Source: Alphaproteobacteria bacterium (lineage in GTDB: Bacteria; Pseudomonadota; Alphaproteobacteria; Micropepsales; Micropepsaceae). From it: DNA of 64,000 bases. The notes below the pieces were generated by a model. It did not search any database. It was not told where the DNA came from and saw only the letters and a list, made by a program, of their open reading frames with translations. A program made the translations under genes and the position numbers. The DNA is taken from positions 62,001-126,000 of the forward strand of contig CANJJD010000003.1 in assembly GCA_947474645.1 (NCBI GenBank), read 5' to 3'. Positions 4,608 to 41,906 of the stretch are shown in pieces (position 1 is the first letter of the stretch; the number at the start of each line of letters is the position of its first letter).

Positions 4608-5801
4608 ATGGCGACCAACAAGAAATGCGGAAAATGGCGCAAACGCACGCTGGCGGTGCGCGGCGGGGAAATGCGCACGCCCTTCCAGGAGACGTCAGAA
4701 GCCCTGTTCATGACCTCCGGCTATGCCTATGAGAATGCCGAGGAGGCCGAGGCCCGCTTCAAGGGCGAGATCGGCGGCTATCAATATTCCCGCTTCGGCA
4801 ATCCCACCGTCTCGATGTTCGAGGAGCGCATGGCGCTGCTGGAAGGCGCCCCCGTCGGCCGCGCCACCGCCACCGGCATGGCGGCGGTGACGGCCGTGTT
4901 CCTGTCCGCCCTTCGCACCGGCGACCATGTCGTGGCGGCGCGGGCCATGTTCGGCTCCTGCCTGCATGTGGTGGAGCAGATCCTGCCGCGCTTCGGCATC
5001 GGCTTCACCCTGGTGGACGGCGCCGATACCAGCGCCTGGGAAGCGGCGATGAAGCCCAACACCAGGATGCTGTTCCTGGAAACCCCGTCCAACCCGACCC
5101 TGTCGCTGGTGGACATCGCCGCCGTGGCCCAGATCGCCAACAAGCACGGCGCGCGCCTGGCGGTGGACAATGCCTTTGCCAGCCCCGCCCTGCAGCGGCC
5201 GATGGAGTTCGGCGCCCATATCGTGATCCATTCCTCGACCAAATATATTGACGGCCAGGGCCGCGCCCTGGGCGGGGTCATTCTCTGCCACCAGGATTTC
5301 CTGGACGATCATCTGCAGGTGTTCATCCGCAACACCGGTCCCAGCATCAGCCCGTTCAATGCCTGGCTGCATCTCAAGAGCCTGGAGACGCTGGAGCTGC
5401 GCATGAAGCAGCATTGTGAAAACGCCCAGCGCGTGGCGGACTTCCTGTCCGGCCACAAGAAAGTGACGCGGGCGCTGTATCCCTTCTCGCCCGACCATCC
5501 CCAGCACAACCTGGCCAAGGCGCAGATGGATGGCGGCGGCGGCTTGGTGGCGTTCGAAGTGGCGGGCGGCAAGGCCGCGGCCTTCAAGCTGGCCAATGCG
5601 CTGAAGATCATCGACATCTCCAACAATCTGGGCGACGCCAAGAGCCTGCTCACCCATCCCGAAACCACCACCCATTCCAAGGTGGCGCCCGAAGAGCGCG
5701 CCGCCTTGGGGATCACGCCGGGCATGATGCGGATTTCGGTGGGGCTTGAAGACGCCGACGATCTTTGCGAGGACCTGGACCAGGCGCTGAAAGTGGCATG
5801 A
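4608..5801 (+). CDS. metZ: O-succinylhomoserine sulfhydrylase
   Basis: This PLP enzyme of 397 residues belongs to the Cys/Met metabolism family and makes homocysteine from O-succinylhomoserine and sulfide in methionine biosynthesis. YSRFGNPT lies at residues 60-67, and the Schiff-base lysine is Lys212 in HSSTKYIDGQGRALGG. The N-terminus TLAVRGGEMRTPFQETSEAL is typical of MetZ rather than cystathionine synthases. It overlaps the following osmC-like gene by four bases (ATGA), so the two are probably translated together. No convincing SAM riboswitch was found in the 118-base upstream gap. Confidence 0.88.
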   Translation: MATNKKCGKWRKRTLAVRGGEMRTPFQETSEALFMTSGYAYENAEEAEARFKGEIGGYQYSRFGNPTVSMFEERMALLEGAPVGRATATGMAAVTAVFLSALRTGDHVVAARAMFGSCLHVVEQILPRFGIGFTLVDGADTSAWEAAMKPNTRMLFLETPSNPTLSLVDIAAVAQIANKHGARLAVDNAFASPALQRPMEFGAHIVIHSSTKYIDGQGRALGGVILCHQDFLDDHLQVFIRNTGPSISPFNAWLHLKSLETLELRMKQHCENAQRVADFLSGHKKVTRALYPFSPDHPQHNLAKAQMDGGGGLVAFEVAGGKAAAFKLANALKIIDISNNLGDAKSLLTHPETTTHSKVAPEERAALGITPGMMRISVGLEDADDLCEDLDQALKVA

Positions 5802-38731: not shown

Positions 38732-39700
38732 TCACTCCTTCGCCTTCAGCGCCTGGTTCATCTGGTATTGAATCTCGCGGCGCTGACCGGCGAAGGTGGT
38801 GGTGGCGGTGATCTTGTAGAGACCCCGCAAATAGGCCACGTCGGCGGAGGTCAGCGCATCGCCGCTGCACCCCGGCGCCAGCAGGTTCAAAATGCTGGGT
38901 AGTGGCTGGCAGGCATCCGGCGGCTGGATCTGGGCCAGCGCCAGCACGGCGATGTAATCGCTAATGCTGCCGATATCACGGCCGATCAGCTTTCTGGTAT
39001 CAGCGATGATCATCACATTGTTGAGGGCGCTGGAAACCCCGTCGCCCAGCCGGTTGCCGGTCACGTTGGTCACCGTGGCATCGGGCATGTACATTTCCAT
39101 GATGCTCGGCGGGCCAGCAGGTCCGCCAAAGTCGGCTTGCGGAATGGCAATGCTCAAATGCACGCCGCCCTTGCGCCCGCCATCCACCACCGGGTTGCCG
39201 CGCAGATCCACCGTCGCGGTGCTGTACCAGGACTGGATGGGGCCGGTGGCCGTCGCCAGTTTGTCCGCCTGGGCGCTGTTTTGATAATAACCCAGCAGCA
39301 CCGGATGCATGATGCGGATATTGTCCAGCAGGGCCTGGGGCTGGGCGGTGAAGATGATTTCGATATTGCCGGGACAGGGGTCCTTGTCGTTCACCGGGGC
39401 GCCCACTTCGGCGGCGAGGGCCCGCACCTTTTTTGTCAGGATGCTGGCCGATTCCGGCGGCAGGCCCACGGTGATGGGACATATGCCGTTCTTCCAGCGC
39501 GCCAGCTTGCCCGCGATCCGCGTCGGCACCGTCATGCCGTCCACGAATTTGCCGATGGCGGCTTCCCCTTCCTTGATGACGGTGACGGTGACGCTTTCGG
39601 TGGGTAGCGGAGCGCTTGGTGGCGGCGCCTCCTGGGCGAACGCATCGCCGCCCAGCATCAAGACGGCACAGAACAGGCAGGACCGGACGCTCAATGGCAC
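38732..39700 (-). CDS. Exported hypothetical protein downstream of the small four-cysteine protein
   Basis: This 322-residue protein has a signal peptide (ending GGDAFAQ) and a proline-rich start. A conserved block follows: ARWKNGICPITVGLPPESA, VRALAAEVGAPVNDKDPCPG and IEIIFTAQPQALLDNI. I recognise this as a pattern found in uncharacterised secreted proteins of alphaproteobacteria. Later segments include DVAYLRGLYKITATTTF. The GTG at 39700 overlaps the end of the upstream small gene by ten bases, so the two are coupled. Probable control is by BlaI through the shared intergenic operator. Confidence 0.62.
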   Translation of the reverse strand: MPLSVRSCLFCAVLMLGGDAFAQEAPPPSAPLPTESVTVTVIKEGEAAIGKFVDGMTVPTRIAGKLARWKNGICPITVGLPPESASILTKKVRALAAEVGAPVNDKDPCPGNIEIIFTAQPQALLDNIRIMHPVLLGYYQNSAQADKLATATGPIQSWYSTATVDLRGNPVVDGGRKGGVHLSIAIPQADFGGPAGPPSIMEMYMPDATVTNVTGNRLGDGVSSALNNVMIIADTRKLIGRDIGSISDYIAVLALAQIQPPDACQPLPSILNLLAPGCSGDALTSADVAYLRGLYKITATTTFAGQRREIQYQMNQALKAKE

Positions 39701-40017
39701 ACCGTCATGCCGCCGCCGTTCGATGCGCCGCCGCCCGTGGACGTACAATTCATTGTCGCGCCGGCGCTCTTGTCGGGAATGATCTCGCTGCCATCGGAGC
39801 TGATGTCCTGGTTGTTCTTGCGCAACAGGGCCCATTGGCTGTTGGTCTTGCAGACTTTCGGCCCCAGTACGCGCGCGCCCGGCAGGGGTTGGGGCGGGCG
39901 GCAGGTGGTGGCGTCAGGATCGCCCGTGCCGTCCGGCCGTCGCGAGCTGGCCTGGTCCTCGCCCCAAGCGGCGGTGACGGCGAACAAGGCGGCAAAAAGA
40001 AGGGTTTTGCAGGTCAT
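39691..40017 (-). CDS. Small exported four-cysteine protein related to the M56 sensor C-terminus
   Basis: This 108-residue protein has a signal peptide (about residues 1-19). Its mature domain carries Cys39, Cys56, Cys91 and Cys107, and the block CRPPQPLPGARVLGPKVCKT resembles CRAPQPLQNSRLLGPEVCMT in the C-terminal domain of the divergent M56 protease (residues 391-410). The spacing between the first two cysteines is identical (17). Its ATG is preceded by AAAGGAG. A regulator of, or ligand-binding counterpart to, the sensor is an inference. Confidence 0.68.
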   Translation of the reverse strand: MTCKTLLFAALFAVTAAWGEDQASSRRPDGTGDPDATTCRPPQPLPGARVLGPKVCKTNSQWALLRKNNQDISSDGSEIIPDKSAGATMNCTSTGGGASNGGGMTVCH

Positions 40018-40038
40018 GGGCGCTCCTTTGATCGAAGA

Positions 40039-40066
40039 TTACCACGGATGTAGTAACAGTTACCAC
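40039..40066. promoter_or_regulatory. BlaI/MecI-type operator between divergent genes
   Basis: TTACCAC-GGAT-GTAGTAA (40039-40056) is an inverted repeat with one mismatch and resembles the TACTACA/TGTAGTA core of BlaI/MecI operators. A second overlapping dyad, GTAGTAAC-A-GTTACCAC (40050-40066), also has one mismatch. The site lies just upstream of a TTGACC (40073-40078) / TAGGCT (40097-40102) promoter for the blaI-like gene and within the promoter region of the 40017 minus-strand gene, so it could control both directions. Confidence 0.65.
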
Positions 40067-40128
40067 TAACCCTTGACCAAGGGCAAGCGCCCGCCCTAGG
40101 CTTGGCCATCCGCTGGTGAGGATTGTCC

Positions 40129-40512
40129 ATGGCGCCGCCAAAGCTCGGCAAACTTGAACTCAAGGTGATGGACGCGCTGTGGGCCCATGGCGCTTCCTCG
40201 ATCCGCGAGATCCAGGAACGTTTCCCCGCCAAGACCCGGCCCGCCTATACCACTGTGCAGACCACCGTCAGCCGGCTGGAAGCCAAGAAGGCGGTCGGCC
40301 GGATCAAGAAAATCGGCGGCGCCTTCATCTATGATGCGCTGGTATCTCGCGAAAATGCCCAAAGCCGGCTGATCGACGATTTCCTGGCGCTGTTCGGCGG
40401 CCGCACCCAGCCCATCATGGCGCACTTTGTCGAAGCCGGAAAATTGACCCTGGATGACGTCCAGCGGGTGGAACGGCATTTGCGCGAACTGGCCAGGGAC
40501 AAAAAGCCGTGA
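40129..40512 (+). CDS. BlaI/MecI family transcriptional repressor
   Basis: This 127-residue winged-helix repressor is the type cleaved when its M56 sensor protease is activated. The N-terminal DNA-binding domain reads KLELKVMDALWAHGASSIRE, then AYTTVQTTVSRLEAKKAVGR with the recognition helix. The C-terminal dimerisation helix bundle (residues about 80-127) includes the region normally cut by the protease. The ATG at 40129 was preferred to a TTG at 40123. It overlaps the M56 gene by four bases (GTGA). Confidence 0.9.
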   Translation: MAPPKLGKLELKVMDALWAHGASSIREIQERFPAKTRPAYTTVQTTVSRLEAKKAVGRIKKIGGAFIYDALVSRENAQSRLIDDFLALFGGRTQPIMAHFVEAGKLTLDDVQRVERHLRELARDKKP

Positions 40513-41906
40513 CTGTCTTCGACCATCTTTGGCAATCCACCTTGTTCGGGGGGCTGGTCTTTCTCCTGACCCTGATGCTGCGCAAGAACAGCGCCACGAT
40601 CCGCTACCGGCTGTGGCTGGCGGCGTCGCTGAAATTCTTGACTCCTTTTTCCCTGCTGGCCGCGCTGGGAGAAAAGACCTTTGTCCATACCGTCCCGGCC
40701 GAATCCATGCTGGTCCTCGCCAGGCTGCGCCCCGTGGTCGTGCCGTTTTCGTCGGCCGCTCCGGCCCCGGATCATTTGCCGTGGCTCACTATCCTGACGG
40801 CGATCTGGGCGCTGGGCGCGGTTGCTATCGCCGTGGTCTGGCTGGTGCGCTGGCATCGCCTCTCGGCCATCGCGCGCGCGGGCCGCACGCTGCCCTTCGA
40901 TCTTCCCGTCCCCGTCCGCGCCACGCCCCTGATGCTGGAGCCGGGACTGGTGGGCATCCGCCGGCCGGTCATTCTTTTGCCCGAGGGCATTTGCGATCAG
41001 CTCTCGCGCAGCGAGATGGACGCCATCCTGCGCCATGAACTGTGCCACCACGCCCGCCGCGACAATCTGCTGGCGGCGCTGCACATGCTGGTGGAAGCGG
41101 TGTTCTGGTTTCACCCGCTGGTCTGGCTGATCGGCGCGCGCCTGATCGAGGAATGCGAAGCGGCCTGCGATGAAAGCGTGCTGGCGGGCGGACAGAACCC
41201 GCTGGAATATGCCCAGGCGATCCTCAGGGTCTGCCGCCTTTATCTGCGCTCGCCGCTGCCTTGCGCCTCCGGCGTCGCGGGCGCCGATCTGGGCCGGCGC
41301 GTGGACGCCATCATGGCCGGGCGCGACGTGGAAGACCTCGATTCGGCCCGCAAATTCCTGCTGGCGGGCCTGTTGCTCGCCACCCTCCTTGCGCCCTTTG
41401 TGGGCGGCGGCCTGAAATCGGCGCCGTCCGCTTTGTTGATGCAAAGACTGGCCACCGCATTGATGCCGGCACCCGCGCCGGAGGTGACGCAGCCGGCTGC
41501 GGTTGCCATGCTGACCGTGATGCCCCGGCCACGCCAGCACCCAGCCCCGCGAGACATCCTGGCGGAAGTGGAAGCCCGCACCCTTCAGGAGCGGGCGCTG
41601 CCCGCCGCCGCCTCGGTGATCGTCATTGCCATGCCGTCTTTATCCGACGTGCAAGCGGACACGGGCGAGATCAATGTCTGCCGCGCGCCGCAGCCGTTGC
41701 AGAACTCCCGCCTGTTGGGCCCGGAGGTCTGCATGACTCAAAGCGAATGGGACAGTCTCGCAAAGCGCAACCTGGTGCTGATGCCGGACGGCCGCACGCT
41801 GGCCGCCAATTATGAAACAGAACGTTCCAAGGCCCCCGGCACCTGCAATCCAACAGGCAATGGGGCCAGTGCAACCCAGCTGCGTTATGTGGGCGATTGC
41901 TTCTGA
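40509..41906 (+). CDS. M56 family (BlaR1-like) sensor metalloprotease with novel C-terminal four-cysteine domain
   Basis: This 465-residue membrane protein has N-terminal helices (about 12-25, 38-52 and 92-113), then the zinc protease domain with His176-Glu177-x-x-His180 in ILRHELCHHARRDN and the third-ligand helix IEECEAACDES. Another membrane helix (about 284-299) follows. Instead of a penicillin-binding sensor it ends with a Pro/Ala linker and a small domain with Cys391, Cys408, Cys446 and Cys464, similar to the divergent secreted protein. It should cleave the BlaI-type repressor when its ligand binds; the ligand is unlikely to be a beta-lactam. Confidence 0.85.
   Translation: MTVFDHLWQSTLFGGLVFLLTLMLRKNSATIRYRLWLAASLKFLTPFSLLAALGEKTFVHTVPAESMLVLARLRPVVVPFSSAAPAPDHLPWLTILTAIWALGAVAIAVVWLVRWHRLSAIARAGRTLPFDLPVPVRATPLMLEPGLVGIRRPVILLPEGICDQLSRSEMDAILRHELCHHARRDNLLAALHMLVEAVFWFHPLVWLIGARLIEECEAACDESVLAGGQNPLEYAQAILRVCRLYLRSPLPCASGVAGADLGRRVDAIMAGRDVEDLDSARKFLLAGLLLATLLAPFVGGGLKSAPSALLMQRLATALMPAPAPEVTQPAAVAMLTVMPRPRQHPAPRDILAEVEARTLQERALPAAASVIVIAMPSLSDVQADTGEINVCRAPQPLQNSRLLGPEVCMTQSEWDSLAKRNLVLMPDGRTLAANYETERSKAPGTCNPTGNGASATQLRYVGDCF

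Follow-up and report, generated by a model that had tools for sequence, protein, structure and literature searches.

BlaR1-type sensors are known chiefly as beta-lactam receptors. The stretch of 64,000 nucleotides analysed here (the window), taken from a genome of a little-known alphaproteobacterial group (family Micropepsaceae), carries a BlaI-family repressor gene and, directly behind it, a gene for an M56 membrane metalloprotease ending in a small domain with four cysteines. A gene on the other side of a BlaI-type operator encodes a separate, presumably exported copy of the same domain. The locus thus raises the question of what a sensor built in this way responds to, and what its secreted double is for. 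We found that the two domains are homologous and that free copies of the domain lie beside BlaI or M56 genes across genomes far more often than even placement predicts. The parts of the locus are as follows.

38732-39700, minus strand: p323, secreted, 322 residues with a GTG start at 39700 as read off the sequence, second gene of the divergent unit
39691-40017, minus strand: free copy of the four-cysteine sensor domain, secreted, 108 residues
40040-40055, no strand: BlaI-type palindromic operator TACCACGGATGTAGTA, found by pattern search, binding predicted only
40129-40512, plus strand: blaI, BlaI-family repressor (Penicillinase_R), 127 residues; Pfam PF03965, E 1e-27
40509-41906, plus strand: M56 (BlaR1-type) membrane metalloprotease with four-cysteine ectodomain, 465 residues; PF05569, E 7.5e-33
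41670-41903, plus strand: four-cysteine sensor domain, about residues 388-465 of the M56 protein, from homology, alignment and tree

The GTG start of the M56 gene overlaps the blaI stop by 4 nucleotides, and the start of the p323 gene overlaps the 3' end of the 108-residue gene by 10 nucleotides. Analyses of p323 were run on 38735-39703, that is, with one extra upstream codon. Pfam named no family for the 108-residue protein, the M56 tail or p323, and NCBIfam likewise gave no match for the three. Below, "L" numbers denote fetched loci and "G" numbers the genomes of the survey.

The sensor domain and its free copy

An earlier note on this DNA had claimed that the M56 tail resembles the product of the divergent gene, and had allowed for an alignment without significant similarity. 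BLASTP aligned the 108-residue protein to the tail at E 5e-13 with 27 of 68 residues identical, which at the level of the sequences excludes chance as the source of the likeness. The cysteines stand exactly where they had been placed, at 391, 408, 446 and 464 of the M56 protein and at 39, 56, 91 and 107 of the free protein, which has a further Cys3 inside its signal peptide; the N terminus meets a crude signal-peptide rule, and export is therefore predicted. The proposed shared blocks (CRxPQPL, R-x-LGP-x-VC, the Trp and the late Cys) are all matched in the alignment. The likeness is strong across roughly the first 50 residues, from the first cysteine to a DG pair, and weak over the final Gly/Ser/Cys segment.

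Among 34 aligned relatives, the first two cysteines, a proline, the tryptophan and a late glycine are invariant, the third and fourth cysteine columns are kept in at least 90% of the sequences, and both the free and the tethered forms keep all four columns. Apart from one aspartate, no conserved histidine or acidic residue stands out. In the predicted structure, confidence is moderate at about model residues 21-70 (block means 82-87) and low at 75-97, the glycine-rich end. A Foldseek search of the PDB with this model found no relative (best E 4.6). The top profile match, 1l0q (E 3.5e-4 over 35 positions), contained no stretch that passed alone and was read as chance, so that no convincing relative was found among solved structures. 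Pfam searches with all 34 rows gave single-row weak matches, the best being 0.0089 (DUF6764, 1 of 34 rows), which were also read as chance.

Co-location with BlaI and M56 genes

The survey comprised 69 genomes placed in the genus. Domain matches with E above 2e-8 were dropped before counting; the weaker ones that were inspected belong to a wider family of short secreted proteins. The remaining 53 places fell into 17 domains fused to M56, one beside an M56 remnant, 14 secreted proteins with two modules, and 21 single copies not fused to M56. Twelve of these 21 have a BlaI or M56 match no more than 3 kb away, against 0.15 expected under even placement (P about 2e-21, a value that assumes independent copies, although the 12 are not fully so: they make up 10 loci in 7 genomes, and G066 supplies 5 of them). 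Chance is very unlikely as the cause of this co-location. The two-module secreted proteins served as a built-in control, and none of the 14 lies within 3 kb of BlaI or M56. The class of 21 includes the ends of two longer secreted proteins (L078, L093), one protein of the short family (G063) and several broken copies with internal stop codons (G001 C114, G086 C72, G066 C223).

We also compared the M56 frames themselves. The fetched loci held 59, of which 15 carry the domain and 42 lack it while having at least 40 residues after the core, the latter including pieces of broken genes (L083, L104, L184). For 7 of the 15 domain-bearing frames (the window, L071, L072, L075, L076, L077 and L078) and for none of the 42, we found in the same locus an ectodomain homologue separate from the M56 frame; because the stretches read vary in length and often stop at a contig end, these same-locus counts are lower bounds. 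An eighth case is G036, where the M56 gene is in two frames and a free copy lies right behind it. The expectation that the pair recurs next to BlaI and M56 genes across genomes was thus borne out for a part of the family, and the pairing is recurrent without being universal.

In L078, the partner of the domain-bearing M56 protein is a longer secreted protein that ends in the domain. This protein (L078:8129-9472, minus strand) and that of L093 (6813-8006, plus strand) consist of two cysteine-containing repeats followed by the C-terminal four-cysteine domain. These families are expanded in the genome G066: counting fragments separately, its roughly 3.8 Mb contain 17 domain, 7 M56 and 20 p323 matches (loci L070, L077, L078, L079, L089, L092 and others).

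A spread beyond the genus was rejected for the domain, which at E <= 1e-5 was found in 2 of 385 genomes of the class, both of this genus, with at most 13 candidates per genome scored. A contig scan returned 14 domain loci, all titled as alphaproteobacterial metagenome-assembled genomes, and a search of plasmids gave no match for the free copy.

The M56 protease and the BlaI repressor

The M56 protein matches Pfam Peptidase_M56 with 114 bits against a cut-off of 31. Its HExxH motif is intact (HELCH at 176-180), and several hydrophobic stretches suggest a multi-pass membrane protein with an M56 domain, whose ectodomain follows the stretch at 284-302. It had been described as BlaR1-like and devoid of a penicillin-binding sensor, and we indeed found no penicillin-binding or transpeptidase Pfam family at E <= 1. 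NCBIfam NF000326 reached 70 bits against a cut-off of 400 and covered residues 127-248 only, and a single-sequence search of the PDB returned nothing at E <= 0.01. We therefore rejected the identity as a beta-lactam sensor, since a penicillin-binding domain is lacking in both Pfam and NCBIfam searches. The divergent unit, comprising the free domain and p323, likewise gave no match to a beta-lactamase or penicillin-binding protein (PBP) family in either library. As far as the sequence allows one to judge, the M56 protein is not a BlaR1 in the strict sense, which would have a penicillin-binding sensor and a beta-lactamase or PBP as its target, but it is built like one.

BlaI, a winged-helix repressor with a dimerisation and cleavage region, scored 97 bits over residues 6-119 (PF03965, cut-off 22.6). 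Its HFVE aligns with NFVE of MecI, whose Asn-Phe we take to be the same site as the bond at which BlaI is cleaved.

The predicted operator between the divergent genes

Both genes had been said to lie around a BlaI-type operator. The palindrome TACCACGGATGTAGTA at 40040-40055 stands between the divergent genes, 22 nucleotides before the ATG of the free copy and 73 before that of blaI. It is perfect by the consensus that we assume for such operators, a TAC...GTA palindrome, on which our search patterns were based. It is the sole site in the window with fewer than three mismatches to TACNACNNNTGTNGTA, and three-mismatch matches were no more frequent than chance. The strict pattern TACNACNNNNGTNGTA had four sites without mismatch in 509,606 bases (the window plus L070-L109), namely in the window, L070, L071 and L086, all of which sit just upstream of a blaI gene. 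A site between blaI and a divergent free copy has no mismatch in the window, L070 and L071 and one in L072. In L076 and L077, the free copy lies upstream of blaI on the same strand, and the best site, between the free copy and a divergent p323 gene, has two mismatches, which is weak evidence. Near 21 blaI genes, the best site had no mismatch in 4, one in 1, two in 7, three in 7 and four in 2; for most of them, a clear site of exactly this type is missing.

The data do not support a BlaI regulon extending past the locus, as genome-wide site counts fell below those of the control. A near-perfect palindrome of the BlaI type lies on contig 35 of this genome (9422-9437; L010, about 4923-4938), just upstream of a gene for a small secreted cysteine-containing protein that we presume to be DUF6491-like. 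This site may be due to chance, because the site counts do not exceed the control.

History of the pair

The tree of 34 domains separates free from tethered forms: the tethered and secreted labels need 3 changes, versus 11.6 when shuffled, and the starred branches force at least 2. Several deep forks are poorly supported. With support 91/90, the free copy of the window groups with those of L070, L071 and L072; the M56 tail of the window joins those of L071 and L092 (100/99). Since free and tethered domains form separate groupings, the pair is older than these species. Recent tandem duplication was thereby rejected as its origin except in G036, whose copy looks like a recent tandem duplicate (100/99). 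Two rows labelled as secreted, L080 and L081, fall inside the tethered group, and L081 adjoins an M56 remnant. In comparisons among four genomes, identity is 67-80% for the free copies and 46-66% for the tails, the free protein being better kept.

The domain has relatives in a wider family of short secreted proteins with the pattern CR-x(n)-TGSRL-x(n)-C-x(n)-W (hhalign 98.1%, E 1.3e-13, 46 columns), a family defined by a 13-row alignment made in this analysis rather than by a library. These proteins have in common with the domain the first cysteine pair, a Gly-Ser-Arg turn, the tryptophan and secretion, but they lack its "DISPDG" strand and second cysteine pair. None of the weak matches to the short family lies in a frame longer than 233 residues, which excludes a fusion to M56 among them. 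In the related secreted proteins with two modules, each module retains the first cysteine pair only.

p323, the regular companion

The earlier note passed over p323, which is the most regular companion of the four-cysteine sensors: it is found in the locus of 12 of the 15 domain-bearing M56 frames and of 3 of the 42 others, one of these three being a fusion. At E <= 1e-10, 21 of the 69 surveyed genomes have it, sometimes as tandem frames, of which L089 has five. Its 70 places in the genus, merged by hand from the match list, divide into 30 within 9 kb of a BlaI match and 40 that are farther from any such match or whose contig has none. In three other families, distant relatives had neither BlaI nor M56 in nine loci (17-19 kb read).

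Searches of the PDB by sequence returned nothing for p323, and Pfam searches with 17 rows gave a best value of 0.074 in 1 of the 17, which was read as chance. The AlphaFold model (predicted local distance difference test, pLDDT, 76.5) gave no Foldseek match at E <= 0.001, with NAD kinases ranked first at template modelling (TM) scores of 0.13. In VIA-align, the 50 listed rows were catalytic domains of matrix metalloproteinases (MMPs), as far as their titles say; the best had Z 8.0-8.8 over about 137-153 residues (Z 8.8 over 140) with a root-mean-square deviation of 3.1-4.3 and about 8-15% identity, and a Z near 8 can reflect a mere common arrangement. p323 thus probably has a matrixin-like fold, an assignment that is likely rather than proven. 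The resemblance to matrixin (M10) catalytic domains lies in the predicted fold, without their HExxHxxGxxH motif: the zinc motif HExxH is absent from all 17 family members, and the stretch DYIAxLALxQ is taken for the zinc helix. In this respect p323 has the look of an inactive protease.

Other M56 loci and exchanged ectodomains

This genome has two M56 genes, both with the four-cysteine domain. The contig-17 gene, the second of the two, follows a blaI of its own and precedes a gene for a retropepsin-like aspartyl protease (PF13650, E 2e-17) and two p323 genes; no free copy of the domain lies beside it. Next to this second locus (L009:7712-10001, plus strand) are genes that appear to encode curlin repeats and a CsgG-type lipoprotein.

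Elsewhere in the genus, other domains take the position of the ectodomain. L160 (6553-8928, plus strand) has an intact M56 frame with a whole p323 domain, and in L186 (3040-4350, minus strand) an M56 remnant without its protease core is fused to p323 beside blaI. The M56 frames of L148 (2294-4822, minus strand) and L150 (4519-7140, minus strand) end in a PF13650 retropepsin-like aspartyl protease, the same family as the separate gene behind sensors of the contig-17 type. Therefore, each of the three kinds of secreted protein is also tethered to M56 somewhere in the genus.

In the class sample, 15 of 385 genomes had an M56 match at E <= 1e-15. Outside the genus, we read 16 further M56 loci from 14 genomes, all adjoining BlaI and none showing the four-cysteine domain. 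One of another family of the class (L213:1417-2838, plus strand), beside blaI, has a tail that we take to be LytM/M23-like.

Proposed mechanism and its rivals

From the observed homology, the association across genomes, the position of the operator and the conserved features of protease and repressor, we infer a divergon of the bla kind whose sensor has been exchanged for one that does not respond to beta-lactams; a single binding module would serve both the sensor and the secreted product, and BlaI would control both units. We regard this as an evenly balanced proposition. BlaI would repress a two-way promoter through the palindrome at 40040-40055, and the M56 protease would bear the small four-cysteine periplasmic domain in place of a penicillin-binding one. 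Contact of a ligand or partner with this domain would cause the cytoplasmic protease to cut BlaI at its His-Phe bond, turning on both units, blaI-M56 on one side and the free domain with the pseudo-matrixin p323 on the other. Free and tethered domains would bind the same thing, the output protein using the recognition module of the sensor as in the relation between the BlaR1 sensor and beta-lactamases, and the free copy would probably remove or present the ligand and thereby also dampen the signal. The interpretation offered in the earlier note held up in part, namely for a BlaR1-type sensor without a penicillin-binding domain, a soluble exported copy, operator DNA between them and recurrence of the pair; competition of the copy for a ligand, its binding to the sensor and feedback would be further possibilities. 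The note gave no place to p323.

Several observations weigh against the shared-module divergon. A hydrophobic stretch at 363-381 of the M56 protein, directly before the domain, scores 1.63, and the domain would be inside if this stretch spans the membrane. Nine of the 21 non-fused copies lie elsewhere, and for 8 of the 15 domain-bearing M56 frames, including the one on contig 17 and that of L092, which starts at a contig end, the stretch read contains no free copy. Operator-like sites are not enriched genome-wide: with at most one mismatch, there were 2 forward and 3 reverse sites versus 37 and 21 for the backward control. A sigma-70 scan of the intergenic stretch gave no promoter, which says little. 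Finally, because the free copies are better kept than the tails, the two need not have kept one ligand.

The chief rival is a docking model, in which the four-cysteine domain binds p323, or the envelope structure on which p323 works, rather than a small ligand. The tethered copy would then sense the occupancy of p323, and the free copy would be its soluble partner or a competitor of the sensor. The regular presence of p323 beside domain-bearing sensors (12 of 15 against 3 of 42), the 10-nucleotide overlap of its gene with that of the free copy, its tandem frames and its appearance as the ectodomain of an intact M56 protein in L160 and as a fusion to the remnant in L186 all favour docking. We nevertheless consider it unlikely, as BlaI matches are absent from the contig or more than 9 kb away at 40 of the 70 p323 places in the genus, and none of the nine loci with relatives from outside the genus has BlaI or M56. 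One may also suppose that the pairing merely reflects family history, a common secreted module of the lineage having been picked up by an M56 tail and the neighbouring free gene being a paralogue with no functional tie to the sensor. The module does occur in other secreted proteins of the genus, including the 14 two-module proteins away from BlaI and M56, and is related to the short CR..TGSRL..C..W proteins. This account is nonetheless improbable, given co-location far above chance in 7 genomes, an operator between free copy and sensor unit in several loci, and an old split of which both members were kept, with only the G036 copy looking recent.

A further alternative would make the domain a redox or metal sensor, whose four cysteines change state by disulfide formation or metal binding and so trigger the protease, the secreted copy acting as an exported thiol or metal buffer. 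The strong conservation of the cysteines, two being invariant and two kept in at least 90% of the 34 sequences, and the predicted export of the free form would suit it. Conserved cysteine pairs are, however, ordinary structural disulfides in periplasmic proteins, the two-module relatives keep only the first pair per module, and no histidine or acidic residue other than one aspartate stands out as conserved. We consider this alternative very improbable.

Relation to known systems and significance

PMC9834060 describes BlaR1 of Staphylococcus aureus as a protein whose outer sensor domain drives a cytoplasmic protease, BlaI being cut directly between Asn101 and Phe102, and PMC5957439 describes the sensor as structurally homologous to class D beta-lactamases. 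With the BlaI-BlaR1 and MecI-MecR1 divergons of staphylococci and bacilli, the locus has in common a BlaI-family repressor, an M56 protease with HExxH, a C-terminal sensor after the last membrane stretch, a divergent secreted output gene with a palindrome between, and the Phe context of the cleavage site in the repressor. It also shares with them a sensor module resembling exported output proteins (PMC9834060, PMC5957439). Unlike these systems, the locus has as ectodomain a four-cysteine module of about 78 residues, and its divergent unit encodes the free copy of that module and p323. Among the matches listed in a search of the open-access literature, we found no paper on M56 sensors with such a domain, which is not proof of absence.

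The exchange of ectodomains between loci suggests a broader idea, which is possible and, on balance, doubtful: that M56 ectodomains in this lineage are tethered copies of exported proteins (the four-cysteine domain, the pseudo-matrixin and the retropepsin-like aspartyl protease), and that the exported twin, in the four-cysteine case, is under the control of the same BlaI operator. The membrane copy would monitor the ligand or partner of the secreted proteins, and the threshold of this sensor would be set by its free twin. The result would be an envelope circuit that refers to itself and is unrelated to beta-lactams. Pairs of BlaI and an M56 protein that bears another kind of ectodomain are found; here, the neighbourhood itself offers candidate binders or partners, the exported twin and p323. 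If the twin shares the ligand of the sensor, the design in which a sensor domain is akin to an output protein would not be special to beta-lactamases.

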